NCBI GenBank assembly: GCA_032209605.1
Contig: JASFXZ010000055.1
Span: 1,116,001-1,180,000, forward strand
Length of the DNA: 64,000 nt
Reading direction: 5' to 3'
Source: Mactromeris polynyma
Lineage: Eukaryota; Mollusca; Bivalvia; Venerida; Mactridae
Shown here: positions 9,499-33,507 of the stretch, in pieces
How the letters are laid out: each line of letters starts with the position of its first letter
How positions within the stretch are numbered: the first letter of the stretch is position 1
Notes under the pieces: generated by a model
Told to the model about the DNA's origin: nothing
Databases searched by the model: none
The model's input: the letters and a program-made list of their open reading frames with translations, nothing else
Made by a program: the position numbers and the translations under genes

Positions 9499-11343
9499 GT
9501 GGACATTCATCAGTAATGATAAAATCTGTGATACTTACATACTGATGGGTGAAAAATGTGGCATTTCTGATGAATGTTTGAACGCAGAGCTATAATGCAA
9601 CCATGTGGTTTGAACGCCTGCGAAGCTAATGTTTCAAAATGCCAACTGTTGCAACTTATATCAATCTAGCAGCAGGCAAGCTTATGTAGCGTTTTGTTTC
9701 CAGGTAATGGAGCAATGGTACAGTAAACCTGGTGTGCATTCAGTTACGGCGAACAGTCGCTCACGTTTTGTTTTGTATCCCTGGCCTTCCGTTTCACATT
9801 GACTGCACACGGGGAACCAAATTACAAAACGTTACGAAACGTGAGCCGCAAGTACCTTTACTGAACGCAGGGCTGGTAGACCTTAGATAAAAATGATATC
9901 ATTTAGACCGTGCTCTGTGTTTGCATAATGTGGGTATTTGAAACGACCATGAATTTCTTTTTGTTCATTGGAGTTTAATTATTTTCAAGTATTCACAATA
10001 TCAAATTATGCTTCCAGTAGAATATATTAGAATAAAATAAACTAATTCATTTTAAAATCAGTACTTTTTGTCAAAATTCTTCGAAAAAGATAAAAACTTT
10101 AAGAATATATTTAAACGTGGTTATATGTGTCAAGTATTGGGATACCACCGGTATAGTAACCGGTATAGTCAGATTATGATCAAATGACAGGCAGTGAAAA
10201 TGGACAAACTGCTCGTATTGATGCAAATATATTCAGCGATTAGCGTAACAATAAATGGGTTGATATGATGCATATTGTTGAAAACATTGGGTCTGTTTTC
10301 ATTGTAAAGTGGGGCCTCTTTGGCCGGTTGATTATGGTAGCTGCCTTCACCGCATAGGGTTTGTGAGGAGGGTGGGCTACGGGAGGTTGGAGGTTTTACC
10401 CAGGTGTCCGCCTATCCCCAAATTAATGCGTCACATGGGGTCTTTATTTACCCTAATAGCTGGAAAGGTTTCGACATGACTCTGGCTGTTATTCTTAACC
10501 ACATTGCAAAGAAAAGCATTAATACATCCACATCAGAAATGCAAAACAAAACATATATTACTGATGATACACATCATCAAATGGAGTACATTACTCAGAT
10601 ATTAAATGTATTTGCACCATCAATGTATAACAAACATTTGGTGTCATTGAGAATATCCTCATACGAGTAATGAACTATAACATTCTCATAATGTTCATTT
10701 TGTTCCATAAGTATACGCATTTGAGAATTCATAATATCGTGTGTCACTCAAGTGTCGGTTTTATTGCTTTATACTACATGTATGATCTATCTACAATATT
10801 TGTATTGAAAGTGTTTTTGTTTTGTATGGTTATAATGTTGAGTTGAAATAAATATACTGCAGCATTACTGTAATAAAATGGTGTGATTTTGTTTATTATT
10901 ATGTCACTACGGAATATGTCAACTTGATATGCCAATCATGCATTCTTTACAATGTAGATAATAAAACAACTTGAAGGTGTTATCCGGATATATTTACCAC
11001 CATATTCTCTCTTGTTTATTGTGTGTCCTGTATGGTATTTTGATATAAGCAAATGCTTACAATCACACACACTCCTATATTGTATAACACTGGGTACATT
11101 TATCAAGAGCAATACATGCTTACATTCCTTTGTTAGAATATTTCGGTAGAAAACATCACTCAGTGCAAATAACTGGTGATTCAGCGAACGTTTGGTTGCT
11201 ACTACAGTAACTAAACCAAAATATATCTTATCCGGGTTTTGTTAACAGTTGAAAGAATGTGATTGTTGTTATGAAATTGAATAATAGAACGTTATAGGTT
11301 ACCCTGGCTGGTGTTAATATCTGGGTAAACTGATGCTTGTAAG
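9499..11343. other. PRMT6 3' flank, no gene seen
   Basis: An AATAAA at 10847-10852, about 1.35 kb after the PRMT6 stop, could be a distant polyadenylation signal, but several other AT-rich candidates exist. A GC-richer stretch at 10310-10400 looks like an old SINE fragment. Nothing else can be supported. Confidence 0.4.
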
Positions 11344-11983
11344 TACAATACATGTTGAGACGAGTATTGTTCCTGCCTCGTCCATGTCCACAATACATGT
11401 TAAGACGAGTATTGTTCCTGCCTCGTCCATGTCCACAATACATGTTGAGACGAGTATTGTTCCTGCCTCGTCCATGTCCACACTACATGTTGAGACGAGT
11501 ATTGTTCCTGCCTCGTCCATGTCCACAATACATGTTGAGACGAGTATTGTTCCTGCCTCGTCCATGTCCACAATACATGTTGATACGAGTATTGTTCCTG
11601 CCTCGTCCATGTCCACACTACATGTTGAGACGAGTATTGTTCCTGCCTCGTCCATGTCCACAATACATGTTGAGACGAGTATTGTTCCTACCTCGTCCAT
11701 GTCCACAATACATGTTGAGACGAGTATTGTTCCTGCCTCGTCCATGTCCACAATAGATGTTGAGACGAGTATTGTTCCTGCCTCGTCCATGTCCACAATA
11801 CATGTTGAGACGAGTATTGTTCCTGCCTCGTCCATGTCCACAATACATGTTGAGACGAGTATTGTTCCTGCCTCGTCCATGTCCACAATACATGTTGAGA
11901 CGAGTATTGTTCCTGCCTCGTCCATGTCCACACTACATGTTGAGACGAGTATTGTTCCTGCCTCGTCCATGTCCACAATACAT
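11344..11983. repeat. 45-bp minisatellite, about 14 copies
   Basis: The unit starts ACAATACATGTTGAGACGAG and ends CCTGCCTCGTCCATGTCC. Copies are nearly identical, with single-base variants such as CACTACATG, GTTGATACG and CCTACC. Because 45 is divisible by three and the unit lacks stops in several frames, long open frames appear on both strands. Their translations are pure 15-residue repeats without flanking protein, so they are not genes. Each unit holds two interlocking inverted repeats (see findings). Confidence 0.97.
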
Positions 11984-14157
11984 AACGAATGCCAAAACTT
12001 TGTGCACGTGTTTCACGTCTGGCAAATATTTGTAATAGTCGTCCAATATTTATCAATCAATTATTGAAATATTATCTGATAAATTTATTACTAATTATTG
12101 AAACAATATCATGAATAAGTATGTATTTCAAAATTGGGAAAATCTTACAGTATCTTAAGTATATTTTCATTAATTCTAATCATTAATTCTAATCATAAAT
12201 TCATATTTTATTACATGCAAAGAATGTCTATGACTAGTAGAAAGAAATGGTAATAACTTTTCAGTGATTTGTCAATATGTAGATATCATTAGATTATATT
12301 ATGAAAGCCATACATATGAAGCAGTGAGAATGACAGCAGATTTTATTTTGTTGTGCAGAAAGTATTAGATTGAAAATAATTCACTCTTGTGAACACGCGA
12401 CTTTAATTTTACCTGTTCAGAGTCGTGTTCATAAAAAATGGATTTCCAATTATAGCTCAGTCAGACAATACATACATTTCAATTGATGTCTGGTTTATAA
12501 ACAATTTAAAACTGTTTCAAATATGTTTGTTATGTTCACGGTAATAGTGACTTTATAGTTCAAACTGAATAAAAACAGATGTATTAAATTGTTTGAATGA
12601 TCATTTACTTTCATTTTAAAACCATGGAAGTAAAGCTTAGATTATTTGGTAGGAAATGTCCCTAACAGTGACCTCTTACTGGTCGTCTTCAGATCCTCAC
12701 GCGAAGCGTTTATCGCCGTCCCTCTCCACCAGGAAAACAGAGTAGTGAGTCATGATTAGGTAACATGGGCAGTAGTAATCTTTATGTACATATCATCAGT
12801 GTACATATAGTATTCACAATAAGCACAGAACACAGCATCAATTAAAAGTACATTGCCACTCCGTAATTGAGTTATAAGACACAAAATCATACCACAAATG
12901 CTTGTCATTGTGACTGTATATTAACATATACAAACCTGAAATAACTCTGGTAATCTGGTTATATAACTGTTGCTCTAAAACAATAATAAAATACTGTGAG
13001 AAACATTTTAGCAGGGTTAGTCAAGGTGATATAAAAATATATCGCTATATAATTTAAGAAACAACCTACAATATAATTTTAAAAGAGTAATTAAACATGA
13101 CGAACAATTATATGACTCCAATAACGTCCATTTGTTAACCATTAACTATACGTGTATACGTGAAACACAACACAATACAATATAACGAAATCGTATTTAT
13201 TTCTTTACTTTCAATTGGCTTCATTTTTAACTTATTTATCTAACAGAGACAGCGAACCAAGTTATTATAACTTATATAAATGAAATCACTCTCGGTGGCT
13301 GCTTCCTGTGTCACTAATCTGTATTCGCACCTATTTCATGAAAGTTCAAAACCAAACTTGCCCAAGGTGGGATTAAGACGTTAAGACGTTAAAACGTAGC
13401 GTCAAAAGTTGCGCGACACTCGAAATTTGCCCTACATGTCAACTAGCATCCCCGTAGCATCCAAAGTTGCAGACGTTGGGGCGAAAACTACGTAATTGAC
13501 GTTTGCCAATGATAAACAAGGTGAGAGAAGGATGCCGTAAAAGCGAAAGGTAAGTTGTGTAATTTTGCTAAAAAAACGTCGCTTTTTCTTGTACCTTTTT
13601 TTGTAAAAAAATAACACTTTCTTTCAGCAAATGTTCGCAATATTTTAAATTCAACATACATCTGGACCAGTATGTATATGGTGATTTTAAAGATGTTCTA
13701 ACGTCAATAAAGCGGATATATAATCTAGTTTATGACTTCTTAAAAAATGTCCCCTTTCCCCGCCAAACGTCATGCGATCATAGGGTGTTGAAATTTAAAT
13801 GCAAAAATCTGAAATATTTATTGTAATAAATTAAATTTGAGTCGATTTTCGACATACATCTCAAGCATTGTTTGCAAAATTCAGCAGTTGTAAATATTGC
13901 CCTTACAGTATAAAAATTATACACTAGAAACGACTTCTTAAAAAATGTCCCCTTTGTACGTTTTTGACGTGATGTCACGCTAAAACTTGTGTATGTCTTT
14001 GTAGGACCGCCTCCAAAAGGAAGTTTCGCTTATTATAGTTGGATAAAGAAATGCAAGAAACAGATATCGAATATTAAATATTACAATCACACAAAAAATG
14101 ATTAATCGAAAGAATTTTCTAATAACAAAACTGCTGGTAAAAAAAGACAACAACGAC
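11984..14157. other. Intergenic, with a 24-bp direct repeat
   Basis: No coding signal is convincing. A perfect 24-base direct repeat (starting GACTTCTTAAAAAATGTCCC) occurs at 13734-13757 and 13932-13955, about 198 bases apart, suggesting an old tandem duplication just upstream of the transposase-like gene. Confidence 0.5.
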
Positions 14158-15431
14158 TGAAATTCCAGACCAAATCAAGGGAAACTACGTCAGAGAGAAC
14201 ATGTCAAGCGATTCCGACAAAATAATAGATTAGAGGAAATACAAAACGTAACTTCACAAAAGATATTTAAAAACAGGATGGACAAAACACGAGCCTTAAA
14301 AACATTAAAATCTTCATTGTCACATACCCCGAGGCGTTGGGTTTCGGTGTTAAAGTCGTATTTACGGAAGAATTCCCCGACTGTTAAGACTTTGGAAAAA
14401 ATGAGAATACTCAGATCACCCGAGGAAATTGACGATGACGATGAATGTGCGGCAGAAAATGTTATTAAATACATCAAATCTATGCTAGAGACTATGCTAG
14501 AGACTACCAAAACACAAAGCTCGAAAGATTCACTTAATGCGAGCAAAACAGTTTGGAGTGAGACGAGATAGCATCAAAGACGGTATTACAGTTAGGACCC
14601 AAATATCAAAGAGCGAAAACTCTTGTTGGAAACTGACAGAAAAAAAACCAGGAATAACAACATCCCAAATGAACACAAGAAACAAGCATATGAGTTCTGG
14701 CTAAGCAGTGGCATATCGCGACCAACAGGTAACAAAAAAAGAGATTAAGCGCGAGCGCCTTGATACTCGTGTGTATGTAAGTCATATGATTCACGTCCTT
14801 GAAAAAAGTCAAACCGAAATTTATAATGAGTTTTGTGCTGCTAATCCAGACATAAAGATGTCGCAGAGAACATTTGAACGCCTCAAACCTTTCTTTGTTC
14901 GCCCTGTAAGACCGGGAGATCGTACTACATGTCTATGTAGGTACCACGTTGAAGTGAAGACAGTCTTTGAATCTTCCATGAAACAACAACAAAAAATACT
15001 TGAAAGAAGAGAAGACCATACTCTTTCATCTAAATATCCCGTACTTCGGACCACGAATGAAGCGATAGAATTAACTCTATGTCCCTGGTTAGATTCAGGG
15101 AAACATCATGACGTATCTTGTTTAAGGAGGGAGTGTGATCGGTGCAGCGTGCAGAATTTCGATTTGATGGAAGATGAACGGGGTGATGAAATTGTCGATT
15201 GTGAAAGGTTTGAATATGTCACAATGTCAAAATAGGGCAGTCAGGTCCGTAAAAAACTGATGCTTGTAAAGAAGAGAACATGCATGAAAGACCTATTCTC
15301 ATACTTTATCGACCTTCATTTCCGGCTCACCAGTTTCGAGCCACATGGCAACGGCAACAACTGAAGTATCTGACAACAAACCTACCACAGAATGATTGTT
15401 TTGTCGTTCACGACTTCACTGAAAACCACAG

Positions 15432-17841
15432 GTCAGTATTTCACTTTCAGTTTGTCATGATACCCAGTTACATTTTAAACAAATACAAATGACTTAAAGA
15501 CGATCGCTACAGTTTCATCATTTTTTTGAAAGCATTCAGAATTTTATGAAAGTTTGTATGTTGATAGCATACAACCTAATCTACAAAAATATGAAATAAA
15601 AAAATGGGGTCACCAGGCTTGGAAAATATTTACGGGCCCCTTTCTTCTGTATACCCCCTACTTTGGCAAATGTGACCGCCGTTTCGTATGTAATAAAAAA
15701 AAATCTCAAAATTTCAGATTTGATTCTAAGTTTTACATCATTTGTTTGGTAACATTTCACTCTTCATTTAACAAGATGAATTGAGTATCAAAATTGTAGC
15801 CATCATGAAAATATACCATGAATAAAAAGTAATAAAATAAAATTATATGTATAAAAAATCACTAAATTTTCAAAGATTTTTTTTTTAATGTTCAAGCATT
15901 CAGATTTTTTTTAAATTTTTCATTAATAATGTTTAAGCTTTACTGTTTTAAAATCAGACTTAAAATACATAGGTCACCAGGCTTATTTTCAAGTATAATA
16001 GTTTTTTATTTTGGGTGGGTGGGGTATTGTCCCAGAAAAAGGCCAAACATATAAAGCGCACTTTTACTTTGGAAAAATATGTTCCTCAAAAACAGAACAG
16101 ACAATGGCTATTTAAGCTGTTTACAAAACACACACAAAAAACAACTACACATATTTAAACAAAATTTTATTAAATATATTTCATATGTTTTTTTACACAC
16201 AGTTGAGAAAGTACCTTTAAGCCACAGTAAAAATATTTGAGGCTTAAAGTATATTAATTACTGAATATTTTTTCACCAAACAATGACCAGTGCAGATCAA
16301 GGTAAGACTCAACACATATGCATGATGACTATCATCTATAGCAGGGTACAGCTTAATTTGCATTGCTCATAATAACATTTTGACATAAATACATATACAT
16401 ATTGTCTATTATACATCTTGGGGCAGTAACCCTTGATTTACCATCATTTTTCTCGGTCAACAATTGTTTTAATCCATCATAACCACCTCTTTCAACTGAA
16501 AGTCCTAAATATGCCAATTTCAGACCACTTCTGTAAATTTTTAAAGCCATTTGTTTACCAATTATATTTTGCTGTTCCATGGGAAATAAAGTAAGTAAGT
16601 TCTCATCTGACACTTTTTCAAAGTTATATTTCTCTAAACAAGTAATAGTTGTTGCACTATAATTTGAAAACATGTGCAATGGGACATCATATGCATTGAC
16701 CAACTTTTGCAAAAGACAAACATTTGCAACTGCATTATGTGCAGCATATGTTTCATGTAAAACTTGGGTCACAAGGTATTCTTGATTATGTTTGTCAAAG
16801 TTTGGGTATATATCCCTCATCAATGGAATAGTATCTACAATGCCAAAAATGAAATATTGTAGTGCTGGCAACAAATTACATTAATAAAAATCCTGATAAT
16901 TCTAGGGAAGTCAAACACTTAGTATCAGGATACTAGTATCAGGATACTAGTACATGGTTGTCTTTGGTTAAGCCAAGCTAAAAACAAAGTCAATGACTCT
17001 TTCAAAGGCATTCCATTAACTGGGTTTGAATTATAAAATAAACAGTATCCATGCAATTTTAGACCAGTCACTTGAGAAGCACTTCTAGCAATAGGCTGTG
17101 TATGTATAATATATAAAATAATTAAATGTATTATTATTGCAAACTGTAGATATCTGAATTATATCACGTTTTGCTAAGACCAGTTGTTTCAATATCATAA
17201 AACACAATAGTACAAGTGTCAAAGTTTTCTATTTTCTTATTTGCTGGTGGTGGTATCTCCTTGATGTCATTATTGTCAGACAAGCCAACGGATGATTTGT
17301 AGGTAACACATTCCCTCATTTCCAATTGTCATATTTCATTTCAACGGTAACAATACCCTCACATCCTGAATAAAAACATGAATTCAAATTAACAGTGTAG
17401 ATAAGATGCTAACTAACCTTATGTTGAAATAAAATACATGTATATAAATGGTTCTGAGTGCTCTTGACCTACACAGGTTTATTATGATTCAAATCAACAT
17501 CAAAATATTTACACTTGTTAAACGGTGTAAATGTAATATTTACTTTAGCGTTATAATCGAAACTGCCGCGATCGTCTTTAACATAATCTATGTTTAATAA
17601 ATCGAAGAGATGATTGATAAATTGACAATTTTGCAGATATTTACAATCTCTGAGTCAAACAGTTTGAAGTCTGATCATTGATCAAATTCCAATCTAGTTG
17701 CATATGTCATCAGTACCTGAAGTTCAATTCGTTTAAATGGTACAGAAACACATGTATATAAGGTTCAGATAATATACTTGAGTACTTGAGGTACTATTCA
17801 ATATTATCAGACGCTTCACGATTTATTTCCTTTACATATAG
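15432..17841 (+). other. Large intron of the transposase-like gene
   Basis: AT-rich and bounded by GTCAGT and a weak TATAG acceptor. It contains the antisense exonuclease remnant (16353-17325). Two copies of GTCACCAGGCTT, about 380 bases apart (15608 and 15973), hint at internal duplication. No other gene is seen. Confidence 0.5.
16353..17325 (-). pseudogene. DEDDh-type 3'-5' exonuclease-like gene remnant, antisense in an intron
   Basis: Read on the minus strand: KEIPPPANKK and then FYDIETTGLSKT (about 17168-17205), the Exo I motif with its D and E. A small frame break follows, then DIIQIS. After a gap with an acceptor-like ACACAG comes PIARSASQVTGL, the Exo II neighbourhood, and LTLFLAWLNQ. 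Then GIVDTIPLMRDIYP and YAAHNAVANVCLLQKLV, the Exo III motif in which the H-x4-D region is present but D reads N. An in-frame stop falls where the second catalytic Asp is expected. Such nucleases act on DNA or RNA 3' ends in the family; this copy is very probably inactive. A 16-base tandem duplication (ACTAGTATCAGGATAC) at about 16921-16955 interrupts it. It may have been carried by the same mobile element as the surrounding transposase-like gene. Confidence 0.7.
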
Positions 17842-18854
17842 GATTGCTGCAAAGACGAATTACAATCGTCATACTTCCAGAGAACGGAAGTAACGCTGCA
17901 TGTCAGCATCCTGTATCGCCACGCGTTGCAGGAATTCGATGGAAGGGATAGCACAGCGGAAACCCCTCTTTTTGTAACAGAACAATTCCTGGTATTCAGC
18001 AATGACGAGAAACATGATCACCATTTTGTACACAGGTATGGTTTGCACGGGTTAAGTATTTTGTTAAGCGAGACAAACATTATTCGGTCATTGCAAATTG
18101 TGTAGATCTAGACCAAACAAATACGAAAATGCGTTGGCCTTTTGATCTAGTTGTGTAATAGTATAGACGTAACAAGTATATAACAATCTACTATTCAGTT
18201 CAGTACAAAATAACTCAATGAAAGCAATATCGGGTTGTCTCAGTTTCCGAATTCTTACAATTTGTATTATTTCAACGTTGATGAACTTAATTAGGCGCCT
18301 TGGTACAAGATGGCACATTGATTATTTTTATTATGTGATTGAAGGGTCCATGAGATGATTCGAGATTACCTTACGACGATCTCATATCCAGTGATCAGCA
18401 TGCACGAGTTCACGGATGGGTGTCATGCCCTGTACAAATCGCGACATTGCATGGGCGATGTTAGTTATAGCTGTGGAGACTTCAGGTACACAAAAGTGAT
18501 ACGAAATTACTTTGAGACGTCCCATGCCAAATGTAAATGAATAATAGTAACAGTAGTAACAGTAGTAATAGTAAAAGTATTTATATTGATGATGATAATA
18601 ATAATGGCGCCGAATATGTATTTAATGTCAATTGCGTTATCTTTAATAGTATTATTAAAAGTCAATTGAAAAATAAATTTATTTCTGATTTTGCAGGTTC
18701 CCAAGACGCCGCTGGTGGGTATGTCAAGAGACAAGTGGATATCTCCATATTGCGCGGAAAAGTAGTTATCAACACAGCAAAAGATGCATACGAATACGCA
18801 AGTGAAAATATGGAAACCACGAGAATCACATCGACATCAGCATATGCCATTTAA

Positions 18855-20312
18855 AAATAAAATTTGGAAATTACATTGACGTCATTGCGCCAGAGGGAAT
18901 CAGTTCATACTGTTGACCAGGGAATAGTTCAATCCAAGACAAATTGATAGCTTTCACGTAAAACAGCAAAATAATAACAGATTAGTATTTATATAAGGAA
19001 TCAGGTAATAATATATACTATCAGCAGTATATACCTTCAACAGTGTATGTACCATCAACAGTGTATATACCGTCAACAATATATACCATCAACAGTATAT
19101 ATACCGTCAACAGTATATGCCATCAACAGTATATACCGTCAAAGGTATATTGCGGTCAACTGTATATACCGTCGACAGTTTATATATGCTGATTGCCAAG
19201 TAAGAGAGTTGTAAATACCATTTGTACATCTTGGGCATGACATGGCCGGGATTAAACCAATGACTTCCAGCACTCTTATCAGACACTACCTCATGAGTGT
19301 TTTTGTTCAAACACATTTAGGCGTACGTGTTTATTTGGAGTTAACATAATTTTTGTAAGTGTACTGAGAACAAGGCAATGGATAATACAATTGTGTTGAA
19401 AAATATTTTTTAGCAGTTGCCAGTACCAGAAGATAAGTATTTTTACAAATTGTTGACTAATGATAGTTCTTATTAGTTCTTGTCTCATACATATCTTCAA
19501 AGTTTTGAACAATAATTTATCAAATATGTAGAGATGGATAATTGGACAGATTTCATAATCGGTTATCGGGTCAGTTTGAAAACTTATAATCGAATCGGAA
19601 ATAATCGAAATATTTAGTTTTTTTTTGTGTAAGTATAATGGTGACAGTTAATATTATTTATACAACTTTATTAACTTAGATAGTCTATACAATCACGTTT
19701 CCACAACAACGTCCCAAAAACAAATATTTAAGAATGCTAAAAAAAAAACTAGTAGCAAAAATATTTGGCAATGATTATTGCTACTGCTAAATAAATAGTT
19801 GAGTAACATGACTTGTGACTACTGCTGGCTAGATGTTTTGTATTGACTAGATTGTTCTAGTGTTATAATTATACAACAATTAGTAACTGTGTTTCACTTC
19901 TTTATGAAGATTGTTCAAACATAAATGACACCGGATTATAACTGTCAAATTTGAATGTTTATCCGGGTTTATAACCTAAACATTTGATTCATATAATATC
20001 CATTTATTGAACTAACACTTCAGTCAAAATTTCCGATCGTAATCAGTTATTGTAGTTCAAAATTGATTGTCGCCATTGTCGGATTTCTAACGACGATTTT
20101 TCGATTGTTTTCGATGATCGCGCCATCACTACAAATATGTATTGAATAAATTTAATAATGTATAACTCATTTGGTTTGTATCATGCCAAAAGTGCTTAGC
20201 TACAAAGTCTATGTTTTCCTTTTGCAAGTTGTAGGAAACACATGGGAATAATGACCATGCATGTATTTGTGAAAATACTCAAACATTTTCTGTTTTCTTT
20301 TTAATTATTTAG
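18855..20312. other. Intergenic with imperfect microsatellite
   Basis: At 19019-19190 there is an imperfect array of ACCRTCAACAGTATAT-type units of about 16-20 bases, about nine copies, with strong drift. The rest is AT-rich and I see no gene. Confidence 0.5.
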
Positions 20313-27599: not shown

Positions 27600-30500
27600 T
27601 TAAAGTCCAGGTGCTCGCAATTTTGCAATATTTATCTGAATTCTTTTATTTTTTGTTGACAGTATATTATTAAATTTCTCAATACAAGGCCATGAGGTTT
27701 TCGGTAAGTATTTCTTTCTGAGGTCATGGTATATCGGACAGCACATTAAGAAGTGGTATTCAGATTCAACAGCGTTTCTATTGCATACTTTACATAATCT
27801 ATTGTCGCTATCAATACCTAACATTCTTCCTGCTTCAATTTCTAATTTATGATCACTCAATCTGGAGCATGTTAGTTGTTTTCTTAATTTATCAATATCA
27901 ATTTTGTCAAGATAACTTTCGTATTCGAAATCATTTTTATATTTGCAATAGTAATTCAATTTTGACATCGATTAAATTGAAGCATTCCAGTCCTGAATAA
28001 ATTGATCATATATTCTGTTCTTAATCAATGGTAGGTAGTTACTGTTTTGATTGAAATTTGTACAGACATACGTAAACCCGAGATGATCAATGATTGAGTT
28101 CAAACGGGAAGCCCAAGAATTGCTATTTACACCCCAGTTACACAGACGGTCGGTCCCCAATCGGTCATTTTATTTTAAATTACTCGCTGTTTTGATCGGT
28201 TGTCATGCGTGATTTTAGTTCTGGTTTTCTGTGTAAACGGCCATCGGTGATGGACAAGTGTTCAATCGGTTAAACAAACATTTCATGGGTTGCTGGTAGG
28301 TGACCAAAAGCAACTCAAACGGGGTTGGATCGGTGATAAGGATGTTTTCATCGATAAAAATGCTGAAATACTATCGGTTTTTATCGTTTGTAAATCGGAG
28401 CTAAATCTGGCGTAACGCTGATTAATCAGTGTTTGATAGCTAGTCATCAGTGGTTAAACACTTTCCGTCAGATATGGCCGGTGATTCATATTTGGTTATC
28501 TTTGTCCGATCGGCGATATCGGTGATTAATAGCTTGCATATATTGTGATATAGGTTGCTGTCGGTTCTTTTATTAAAACAATATGTTTAAGTGATGAGAA
28601 CCGATGATTTTTTTGCAGTTGAGTTGACCAATAGAAAAAATATGAGAATTAAAATGTGGGATTTCGTCGGTTTTGATCGGTGGTTAATAGGGATTCAATC
28701 TGTGATCAATTGATTGCCGCCATCGTGTCATCGATGGGTTTAAATTTGTAAGTGGCCAATCGGTATTCATAAGTACTCATCGGCTGTTGATCGGTTTCTA
28801 TCGGTGGTAAGTATTAGTTGATCGGTTGCTTAGCGGTGGCTCATCGGTGATATCGGTTGTAGACAGGTTGTCAATCGGTTATTTGTAAAATATTTTCACC
28901 GATCGAGAATTTTAAACATGTTTAAAAATCCCAATCGATAATTTTTCACCGATAAAACTTATCTTTCCCCAATAGCAGTTGATAGGTGGAAAACAGGTGA
29001 CCAATAGGTGATATCGGTGTTAAATACGTTGTCATCGGTTCACTCCATAATTTGGCTAAAAAACTACCGATCAATCACCGATGGCTCTGTGTAACTGGGG
29101 TGTTACATTAGCACATAGATCCAAATACATGAAGTTGATAGAAGATTGGTTATTTTTCATAATTTTCAACCAAAACTTGATAGATCTAATTTTACTAATT
29201 ATAGATAATGGGAACCTTCCCAGTTCACCATATACAGCGTAATTAGGTGTCTGATGTTTAATACAAAGTATCTTTTTACAAAACCTTACATGCAATTTAT
29301 CTATATCCTTGTTGTTAAAAACACTCCATACTTCGGACCCATATAGTAAAATTGGAGCTACCATTGTATCAAACAAAGATAACTTTGCCTTAATATCTAA
29401 CTTAACTTTGTCAAATAATGATAATAATTTATGGTATGCACCTAAAGCTTTTTCTGTAAGAGTTTTAACAGCAGTAGACATATTACCGTTATAAGTGAAC
29501 TTAATTCCTAAATATGTGAATTTGTCAACTCGCTCAACCTTTTCCCCATTTATGAAAACATCTGAATAATTAGTGTGTTTTCGTTTTTCAAATACACATA
29601 TTTTTGTTTTGGTCACACGGATTTTCAAACCCCATTTTTCTGAATACCTATATACATTATCAATTTGAGATTATAGACTTTTATGATCAGTTGTGAACAA
29701 CACTATGTCATCAGCAAATAATATCATATACATTGACAATAATTCCAAATCTTTATCCGTTAACGTATCAAAATCTATATTATCAACGATATCATTTATA
29801 AATAAAATGAATAAAAGGGGAGATACGGTTCTCCTTGCTTTAATCCTTTTGTGACGTCAAAGAAATCTGATATTTCCATTGTACTAGATATTTTCACACA
29901 TGATTGAACTTCATTGTAAATACATTTAATAATATTTGTCATTTTGCAGCTGATGCCTGATTGTATCAATTTTTTCCCATAATGCATCCCTATTCACTGA
30001 ATCAAATGCCCTTTGATAGTCTATAAAAAATACTATAAAGACTTGTTTTGTTACTCAAAACATTTTGTATTACAGAATGTAAAAGGAAAATTGCATCAGC
30101 TGTAGAACGACCATCGCGGAAGCGAAATTGTGAATCATTAAATGTGTTTTCAGATTCGCACCAAGCATTAATGCGATTCCTCAATAAAAGTGAGAAGAGT
30201 TTACCCATAATGTTAACAAGTGTGATTCCTCTATGATTAGACGGATTATTTTTATCTCCCTTTTTATGACTAGGAACAATGTTACCTTTAAACCAAGCAT
30301 TTGGATATACACAGTTGTCAAATATATAATTAAATATCGTACAAAGATATGGTGATATAAAATCATTCGAATCAATAAAAAAATCTGCAACATTATTTTC
30401 ATCGTCACAACTTGTGTTCGCCTTACGTTTATTTTGGACAAAAGCACGTCTACAGTTCATGAAGTGCACTTTGTTTATTTCTGTTTTATTACAATTATAA

Positions 30501-31160
30501 TTTCGTTTTGCAGCATAGAAATGATTTCGCCCGTCTGCAATTTCCATCAGACCATGGCGATCTTCTCGTTTTTGGTTTGGTACTATATGTACGACCAAAA
30601 TATTTAAGATATTTGAGATATCATATACAACATTGGAAAACACATTAACACATTCATTAATGTCAGACTCATTAGACAATAACTTGTCATTAATATCATT
30701 AAATACATCTTCATTTGAACGAACTCGTTCAAGAAATTCGTCTCTAATGGAGGTATCCCATACAATTTTGTCATAACTCAAAACTGTTTTATAAGACCTA
30801 TCAATATAACAACAAAAAGAAACTGCAACTGGACAATGGTCCGAAAATTCCGTCATATCTAATAAACACATATTATTCACAGTTTTAAAGCAGTCTGCAC
30901 TAGCGACTAAGTAATCTACTAAACTAAAAAAACAGTTCGACCTCGACATTGGGCGTTATACGTGCATTTTCCATCCTCTAAACGTCCATTCACTATGCAG
31001 AGATTGTTTTCTTTACAAAGATTTAATAATTTAGTAATTTAGTGCCAAAGTTATTCACTATTTTATCGTGATTTTGTCTCACAGGTAGACTCGATACCGG
31101 TAGTCTGTTTGTGGAGTATCTACGTATCTGTTCAGATGAATATTGACAACGCGCAAAGTC
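27600..31160 (-). mobile_element. Non-LTR retrotransposon (APE endonuclease/RT type), inactive, interrupted
   Basis: Read right to left. The endonuclease C-terminal half has LCIVNGRLEDGKCTYN (about 30960-31020), then VDYLVA and SDHCPVAV (SDH at 30836-30844). Reverse transcriptase follows: SHKKGDKNNPSNHRGITLVN, SQFRFRDGRSTADAIFLLH, GLKQGEP (near 29830) and the catalytic FADD (29707-29718). Then a thumb/connection part (FTYLGIKF, LLYGSEVW), and after the inserted MITE the C-terminal Cys-His cluster (LCKVCNRN...EYHFLMC) to TAA at 27600-27602. Frameshifts near 30950 and 30000 and stops near 29800 and 29670 make it non-functional. The 5' endonuclease motifs are missing. The Cys-His tail suggests a Jockey/CR1/L2-group clade, not resolved further. 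Confidence 0.9.
28130..29102. mobile_element. 973-bp MITE with TTA target duplication, inserted in the retrotransposon
   Basis: Termini are CACCCCAGTTACACAG and its exact reverse complement, flanked by TTA at 28127-28129 and 29103-29105. Removing the element and one TTA restores the retrotransposon frame (CANV|NSNSW), so the borders are firm. A 3-bp TTA/TAA duplication fits PIF/Harbinger-type transposition. There is no transposase. The interior carries 17 ATCGGT and 5 ACCGAT hexamers spread end to end. Confidence 0.88.
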
Positions 31161-31961: not shown

Positions 31962-33507
31962 CACTGACCCAAATGAAAACTTTACATCAATTTCAAAAGT
32001 ATATATTTTGTTGATAAATGTATATTCGGGGTTATTTTTTTTCATTGAAGCTTCAATGCAATATCAATGTGTTTATGTTATTTACTGGGAAAAAATCAGA
32101 CAATGCATATTTTTTATGAACAATTAAGTGGAGAGGGGTCGAAATTAAAATTCCCGAAAAATGTAAATTATCACACAACATTTGGAGAAAAGAAAGTACT
32201 GACTGAGTGATTTTATAAGAAGCATCAGTAACCAGTGTGACCGCCATTTTTACGAATGCAGTGGAGAATACGCCGCCTCATTGAATTTACGTAACGTTGT
32301 ATGATCGCGTTTGGAATACGTTGCCATTCTAACACAAGTGCATTTCGGAGGTCATTTATGGTATCAATTTGATGCTCGGACCTGGCTCTCCGACCCAATT
32401 CATCCCATATGTGTTCTATTGGGTTCAAGTCTGGGGATACAGCGGGCCAAGGCAAGACGTTAACATTATTTTGAGCAAGGAAGTGTGTAGTTATACGCGC
32501 CATGTGAGGCGTTTGCATTGTCATGCTGCAAAGTGCCAGGTCCGTTATTTTGCATTAATGGTATCATTATATTGTTTAAAACATTAATACAACTTTGAGC
32601 ATTGAGATTTCCTTGGATAAAGACCGGATAAGTTTTCAGATTCCCCATTATCCCACCCCAGACCATAATACTGCCACCACCAAATTTGTCTCTCTCCTGA
32701 ATACAACAATCTGCAAGTCTTTCGTTTCGACGGCGATAGGTGCGTATTCTGCCATCTGCATGGCTGACAGTAAACCATGACTCATCCCTAAAACGTATCG
32801 ATTTCTACTGGTTACGCGTGAAATGAAAATGACGTCGTGCCCATAACTGTCTGACGAGCTGTCAAAATCCGTCCAGTATATGGACGACGAGCACGAATAG
32901 GAACACGGTTCTGTCTCAAACGGTTTATGATCGTCTGTGCATGAACCCCGTAACCCCGGGCAGTAATGGTTGCTGGTAATAAACGATTACGTAAGTGAGT
33001 CAACGTGATAACGCGATCAGTACGTAACGTTGTAGCACGTACGCGACCGGGTCTTGCACGATCTCTGACAGATCCAGTAGTGTTGTACCGGTTGGCAAGA
33101 TTAAGAATAGTCTGTCTGGAGCAGCCAAAATGACGCGCTACGTTATTTACCATTGATCCCGCCAGTGGCATACCAATAGCCTGGTTTCTCTGATCTTCAA
33201 AAAGACGTGGTATCACTAAATGCAATTGATTTTTAAAACAAATTCAATATTTTTTATCTGTGCTAAGCAGCAAATGATTACTTGTCAGTGTAAAACCTGT
33301 TAGTGAAACAAATGTTGCTGCGCACATGCCAAGTAAGGAAAACGATTTTCCTGTTTGGAAGCATGAATATACCGGCGATTTTAAAAAAAATTGAATAATC
33401 GTCATCCGCAATAAAATCGTGATAAACATGTGTAACACAACAACATATATACTAACAAAACTAATATTTAAAAAAATAATGTGTAAAGTTTTCATTTTGG
33501 GTCAGTG
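31962..33507 (-). mobile_element. Tc1-like DNA transposon, 1546 bp, with TIRs and TA duplication
   Basis: The left end CACTGACCCAAATGAAAACT and the right end (reverse complement CACTGACCCAAAATGAAAAC) form imperfect TIRs of about 30 bases. TA dinucleotides flank at 31960-31961 and 33508-33509. Length, TA target and transposase fit Tc1/mariner. The element sits 4 bases from the start of the 70-bp satellite. Confidence 0.93.
32225..33225 (-). pseudogene. Tc1-like transposase, two frameshifts and one stop
   Basis: Read from 33225 down. The N-terminal paired helix-turn-helix region has NVARHFGCSRQTILNLANRY, then GSVRDRARPGR and a second HTH. The catalytic core begins around FRDESWF (first Asp), continues with GGGSIMVWGGIMG, then LQHDNA (second Asp) and VSPDLNPIEHIWDELGRR (Glu), ending in GGHTGY and a stop. 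Allowing for a one-base insertion near 32511, 34 residues separate the second Asp from Glu: the DD34E signature of the Tc1 group. Other lesions: a one-base frameshift near 32851 and a TAG at 32805-32807. So few lesions suggest recent inactivation. The enzyme would cut and paste the element at TA sites. Confidence 0.92.

Follow-up and report, generated by a model that had tools for sequence, protein, structure and literature searches.

The 64,000-nucleotide stretch of the bivalve Mactromeris polynyma analyzed here (contig JASFXZ010000055.1, positions 1,116,001 to 1,180,000; hereafter, the window) contains, at 14158-18854 on the plus strand, a four-exon, frame-broken transposase-like gene whose intron 1 holds a DEDDh exonuclease pseudogene on the opposite strand. 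The two genes almost certainly belong to two unrelated mobile elements, one nested in the other: a decayed outer transposase-like gene, and an internally deleted, nonautonomous KolobokD element in its intron 1. A nested insertion is favored over a single element because the exonuclease has its own element with TTAA and terminal inverted repeats (TIRs), has a Kolobok transposase as its partner, and is absent from all of the 29 other outer-gene loci examined and their 1.5-kb flanks. The original prediction, made from the letters of this stretch alone, had made both genes part of one large mobile element if the pair recurred elsewhere; what appeared to be a new two-gene element proves to be an element of a known lineage inserted into another.

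KolobokD is a lineage of the Kolobok superfamily of DNA transposons (Kojima and Bao 2022, PMC9587614). The Kolobok signature is a TTAA target duplication and 5'-RR..YY-3' ends. KolobokD elements, reported there from mollusks, arthropods, and cnidarians, encode two proteins: a DDD/E transposase, with a CCHC motif after the first D and a DxxH motif and zinc finger before the last E, and a DEDDh exonuclease related to exuperantia and TREX.

Results

The exonuclease insertion and its ends

The exonuclease insertion is bounded by TTAA and inverted AGACGATCGC ends. A repeat search returned a 23-nt inverted pair, 15494-15516 and 17559-17581, which reads TTAA-AGACGATCGCTACAGTTTC and GAAACTGCCGCGATCGTCT-TTAA. 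When TTAA-flanked inverted ends were sought 500-6,000 bp apart with at most three mismatches, this pair stood alone in the 64-kb window, and no such pair appeared when the surrounding 10 kb was shuffled 40 times. The termini are AG...CT (5'-RR, YY-3') in the window and in the copies described below. The inserted features are as follows.

15494-17581, no strand assigned: candidate nonautonomous KolobokD-type insertion, 2.1 kb, TTAA included
15494-15497, no strand assigned: left TTAA target-site copy
15498-15516, plus strand: left terminal inverted repeat, 19 nt
~17322-16386, minus strand: PML/TREX-like DEDDh exonuclease pseudogene, spread over three frames, with HNAVAN in place of HNALED; type taken from the domains of P0122
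17328-17405, minus strand: 26-residue Kolobok transposase remnant just upstream of the exonuclease, stopping near the first catalytic Asp
17559-17577, minus strand: right terminal inverted repeat, 19 nt, differing from the left one at two positions
17578-17581, no strand assigned: right TTAA target-site copy

A search for TIRs had been suggested by the original prediction, in which the 19-nt repeats around the exonuclease went unnoticed; for the outer element the same search gave no convincing ends at this locus, the candidate inverted pairs around 14158-18854 being mostly AT-rich and unconvincing.

The antisense exonuclease in the intron was read correctly in that prediction. The window gene has a PML_C domain (E 3.8e-12), and residues 27-82, 104-172, and 177-339 of the relative P0122, which itself has RNase_T and PML_C domains, match it in different frames with a joint E of 1e-51 (tblastn). 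Its third catalytic motif is HNAVAN in place of HNALED; one catalytic Asp is therefore lost, and by its sequence the window exonuclease is dead. The transposase remnant is 73% identical to the relative at locus L034 (E 2.6e-8).

Copies of the element and its two-gene relatives

The exonuclease search of the genome gave at least 120 matches, or at least 105 places once merged, and 30 exonuclease loci were examined in detail. The window element has seven copies among these (L015, L019, L020, L021, L025, L029, and L030), which share its ends but differ in their flanks; their identity to it is 97.4-98.0% at aligned sites, or 93.5-94.3% by blastn counting gaps. TTAA stands at both ends in five of the seven, L021 being truncated at its locus boundary and the left end of L030 being altered. 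All seven carry ~1.24 kb of extra sequence that is absent at window position 17502, with AAAA at the junction. Relative to these copies, the window sequence may represent either a further deletion or the ancestral form.

A longer relative is found at L034:568-7898, a 7,331-bp, TTAA-flanked element with the same ends as the window element. It contains a PF20700 'Mutator' transposase (E 7.8e-30) followed on the same strand by the exonuclease (P0122, E 8e-77), with open frames broken into several pieces. We take PF20700 to cover Kolobok. The same transposase-then-exonuclease order occurs in L031 and L032, where RNase_T, Exu_RNase_H_like, and PML_C score above the cut-off, whereas in L034 they fall below it. 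Kolobok motifs were recognized by inspection of the translations: CKTC...HSC in L034, and DINH and CDPTWC in L032. Across the 30 exonuclease loci, long stretches of Kolobok transposase stand beside the exonuclease in ten, and a remnant of 26-30 residues in six more. Because of the shared ends, the copies, the transposase and exonuclease of L034, and its own 26-residue remnant, the most fitting reading of the window element is a KolobokD-type element with an internal deletion.

These data also bear on the idea of a host origin, in which a PML/PLEX9/TREX-like gene of the host, or a processed copy of it, came to lie in the intron by chance. The domains of the window gene and of P0122 would suit such an origin, as would the sequence match among Protein Data Bank entries to 9mrc (E 0.0017), identified in a 2026 preprint as zebrafish Plex9.1. 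This idea is nevertheless extremely improbable in view of the TTAA/TIR ends, the multiple dead copies with the same ends, the transposase remnant upstream, and L034, which holds both transposase and exonuclease between those ends.

The remaining 14 of the 30 loci give no Kolobok transposase match within 1.5 kb at an E of 1e-4. One of them, L025, is among the copies of the window element named above; two more (L010 and L028) belong to no group, and the other 11 fall into two multicopy groups. Weak transposase matches were seen in L028 and L012 (E 2e-4 and 0.003, respectively). In the first group (L012, L013, L014, L016, L017, and L023), one end reads TTAA then GG in all six; in the second (L018, L022, L024, L026, and L027), one end reads CC then TTAA in three of five. 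Both groups carry PML-like exonuclease genes in long open frames of 267-307 amino acids, with one stop in L013. Separately, ten stop-free exonuclease matches share an identical score (E 8.8e-35) on C13, C69, C143, C160, C185, C234, C245, C256 (two), and C267, and probably represent, to judge from these matches, another recently amplified exonuclease-bearing family.

Co-occurrence of the two genes

The outer gene was compared at 29 loci besides the window, with 1.5-kb flanks. Neither the exonuclease nor any inner-element DNA was found at any of these within the flanks. The alignment passes residue 488, next to the intron 1 site, as one stretch in 28 of the 29 and as two abutting stretches in L043; therefore, there is no room for an exonuclease at the intron 1 site of those loci. 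No exonuclease was found within the 121 relatives of the outer protein, and no exonuclease lies within 11 kb of 43 of the 47 outer-gene places among the matches listed, the lists of exonuclease and outer-gene places both being lower bounds. Both genes belong to multicopy families, and they occur independently in this genome, the outcome named beforehand as refuting their common origin.

That common origin, in which one large mobile element encodes both a transposase-like protein and an exonuclease, one gene lying antisense in the intron of the other, draws its support from the nesting itself and from pairs found elsewhere. The two genes lie within 11 kb of each other at 4 of the 47 places (window included), with ~0.16 expected under a uniform model; three of the four pairs (window included) are within 10 kb, and the fourth is at 10.2 kb, against an overall expectation of ~0.14-0.16. 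For the pairs outside the window, the distances are 4.2, 5.6, and 10.2 kb and the orientations +/-, +/+, and +/+. Recurrence within 10 kb was seen in two further pairs, and the relative orientation of the window (+/-) in one of the three (C250). In each of these three pairs, a Kolobok transposase lies directly upstream of the exonuclease (L009, L007, and L065), and clustering of transposons is a likely candidate cause of the excess. Together with the TTAA/TIR element around the exonuclease, its copies elsewhere, and the pairing of the exonuclease with a Kolobok transposase in L034, these results make a single two-gene element very improbable.

Besides the excess of close pairs and the 14 loci where no Kolobok transposase was detected, several points weigh against a nested KolobokD insertion. 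Within the stretch examined, a search allowing up to three mismatches gave no TTAA-flanked inverted ends in L031, L032, L033, or L065. Several of the 29 outer-gene loci are near-identical copies and so do not count as independent, and an empty site of the window intron 1 was not seen. The KolobokD label rests on the description in PMC9587614, not on a tree with the sequences of that lineage.

Structure and decay of the outer gene

The multi-exon protein of the original prediction, with its HDFTEN, FTDG, and QDAAGG motifs, is borne out as a four-exon gene.

~14158-15431, plus strand: exon 1, at least three frame changes, ends with HDFTENHR at a GT donor
15432-17841, plus strand: intron 1, ~322 bp minus the insertion, position conserved among relatives
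17842-18035, plus strand: exon 2, from tblastn with relatives
18036-18344, plus strand: intron 2, GT-AG
18345-18532, plus strand: exon 3, FTDG, second Asp
18533-18696, plus strand: intron 3, GT-AG, position conserved among relatives
18697-18854, plus strand: exon 4, QDAAGG, third Asp

In tblastn with relatives, exon 1 matches P0007 at E 2.5e-91 and exons 2 and 3 match P0018 at E 7e-21 or better, both far beyond chance, and the gene in the window covers residues 84-658 of P0002. Exons 2-4 are in one frame across introns 2 and 3, and the acceptor of intron 1 is out of phase. The homology of 10 of the 121 relatives breaks off at residue 486-488, the site of intron 1, which is therefore native and old; that of 8 of the 121 breaks off at residue 616, the site of intron 3. 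Decay of both genes had been noted from the start: to the three frames and HNAVAN motif of the exonuclease, exon 1 of the outer gene adds its own shifts of frame and, at 15233, an in-frame TAG. The zinc cluster and BAH-like C-terminus of the relatives have no credible match in the window (tblastn, 11 relatives).

The three introns, two of them at positions common to relatives, might suggest a domesticated host gene struck by a transposon, which is compatible with nesting and disputes the nature of the outer gene alone. We regard domestication as unlikely: the gene is interrupted by at least three frame changes and a stop, its C-terminus was not found in the window, and its family is multicopy, with ~100% identical copies at several places.

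Three repeats lie near the gene. A coding-like tandem repeat (STIHVETSIVPASSM) spans 11314-12067, a perfect 24-nt direct repeat upstream of exon 1 occupies 13734-13757 and 13932-13955 (starts 198 bp apart), and a short AT-rich minisatellite lies directly downstream of exon 4 (19007-19183).

The outer family

The transposase-like character of the outer gene, as first proposed, agrees with structure prediction: the predicted core is of the RNase H type, with three conserved Asp on the expected elements. In the family these are D482, D577, and D619, 41 residues separating the last two. For the C-terminus of the relatives, the top Foldseek match is Arabidopsis EBS (E 2.3e-3), presumably a BAH protein, and the polybromo BAH domain is matched with probability 1.00 (E 8.2e-3 and 2.3e-2). 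The Pfam BAH model gave no match to this region; the predicted structure suggests a probable BAH-like domain.

No Pfam model scored above the cut-off for the outer-family proteins tested, and a search of the literature (Repbase not covered) for the family, or for BAH combined with a transposase, returned nothing relevant. Scans of genome contigs and viral contigs gave no relatives of query A1; the solved-structure search with A1 gave no match below E 1.2, the viral structure library none below E 1e-3, and Rfam none at the gathering score. Most named homologs of the outer gene come from mussels and other bivalves. The relatives P0019, P0024, P0025, P0041, and P0103 occur in metagenome-assembled genomes labelled Sedimenticola sp., likely through contamination by an animal host.

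The outer family is multicopy in this 793-Mb genome. Eight copies of a distant subfamily (L051-L058, on C1, C34, C35, C46, C101, C248, and C278, the last twice) show ~100% identity along 4.9 kb or more of the 5.2 kb compared: against L051 over 5,157 bp, six of seven comparisons give 99.98-100% at full length, and L057 gives 100% over 4,931 bp with a break. L066 and L067 are listed with this subfamily. Its left end lies near ATGACTCTAAATTTGC, beyond which the flanks of two copies differ. The mobility of the outer family was judged by recent identical copies at different loci, and L051-L058 are such copies; the subfamily was probably active very recently.

Tentatively, and with more doubt than belief, we propose an undescribed superfamily of animal DNA transposons, with the outer gene as one of its decayed members. 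This superfamily would be present in bivalves and cnidarians and recently active here, and its D-D-D RNase H transposase would combine Cys clusters with a basic helical region at the N-terminus and a BAH-like chromatin-reader domain at the C-terminus.

Discussion

Proposed history of the locus

By its sequence, the inner element inserted at a TTAA of intron 1 of the outer gene, duplicating the TTAA. Nearly all of the transposase was lost and deleted copies spread, possibly moved in trans by KolobokD proteins made elsewhere. The exonuclease may trim 3' DNA ends during transposition, as proposed in PMC9587614, and the outer family may use DDD chemistry to move its own DNA. Decay of the outer gene probably preceded the insertion, because the inner element is 97.4-98.0% identical to its copies, whereas the outer gene is ~39-79% identical to P0005, P0007, and P0018 in separate stretches (tblastn).

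The locus offers a clean example of its kind, with TTAA ends, a 7.3-kb relative carrying both genes, and deleted multicopy derivatives. Many PML/TREX-like exonuclease genes of this genome lie in Kolobok-type elements, and such transposon-borne exonucleases bear on the direction of descent between transposons and the PML-type exonucleases of animals. The outer gene, in turn, leads to a family of transposase-like genes that is multicopy and recently active and matches no Pfam model above the cut-off; should this family prove undescribed, its combination of a transposase with a chromatin-reader-like domain would deserve a name.

Elsewhere in the window, open frames lie on the minus strand at 29071-30955 and 32466-33243; by eye, we take the first to be similar to the reverse transcriptase of a long interspersed nuclear element (LINE) and the second to be a broken Tc1-like transposase.

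Comparison with known systems

An assignment of the outer gene to Kolobok was considered and rejected: there is no Cys/His finger between D577 and D619, and ETSH/GSxH stands instead of C/DxxH (P0002 and seven genomic copies). According to PMC9587614, the Kolobok1 lineage likewise lacks the zinc finger. The Dada superfamily, as described in PMC3706591, resembles the locus in having a DDE transposase with zinc motifs and, in some members, a DnaQ-like exonuclease. Dada was rejected for the outer gene by catalytic spacing (D567, D635, and E811 in Dada-U6_DR versus D482, D577, and D619); in the outer family the last two residues are only 41 residues apart, and no DxxH motif is seen between them. 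To judge from the predicted structure, retroviral integrases, IstA, and the P element transposase resemble the outer gene at the level of the fold only.

The window exonuclease shares a DEDDh-type exonuclease fold with Plex9.1, one of the PML-like exonucleases, and with the C-terminal PXL domain of PML-1, as these are presented in the preprint PMC12934764. A SAM-like region follows the exonuclease fold in PML-1, and a PML_C region occupies the same place in the window gene. Plex9.1 and PML-1 are vertebrate host proteins, whereas the window gene lies inside a transposon.

The inner element is like KolobokD in its TTAA duplication, its RR..YY ends, and its exonuclease type, with the transposase and its CCHC, DxxH, and zinc-finger motifs seen in the relatives L034 and L032. 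Unlike a full KolobokD, the window copy is internally deleted and nonautonomous, with only 26 transposase residues found and a dead exonuclease. The nesting itself is ordinary, and the inner element adds a new nonautonomous member to a lineage that is already published.

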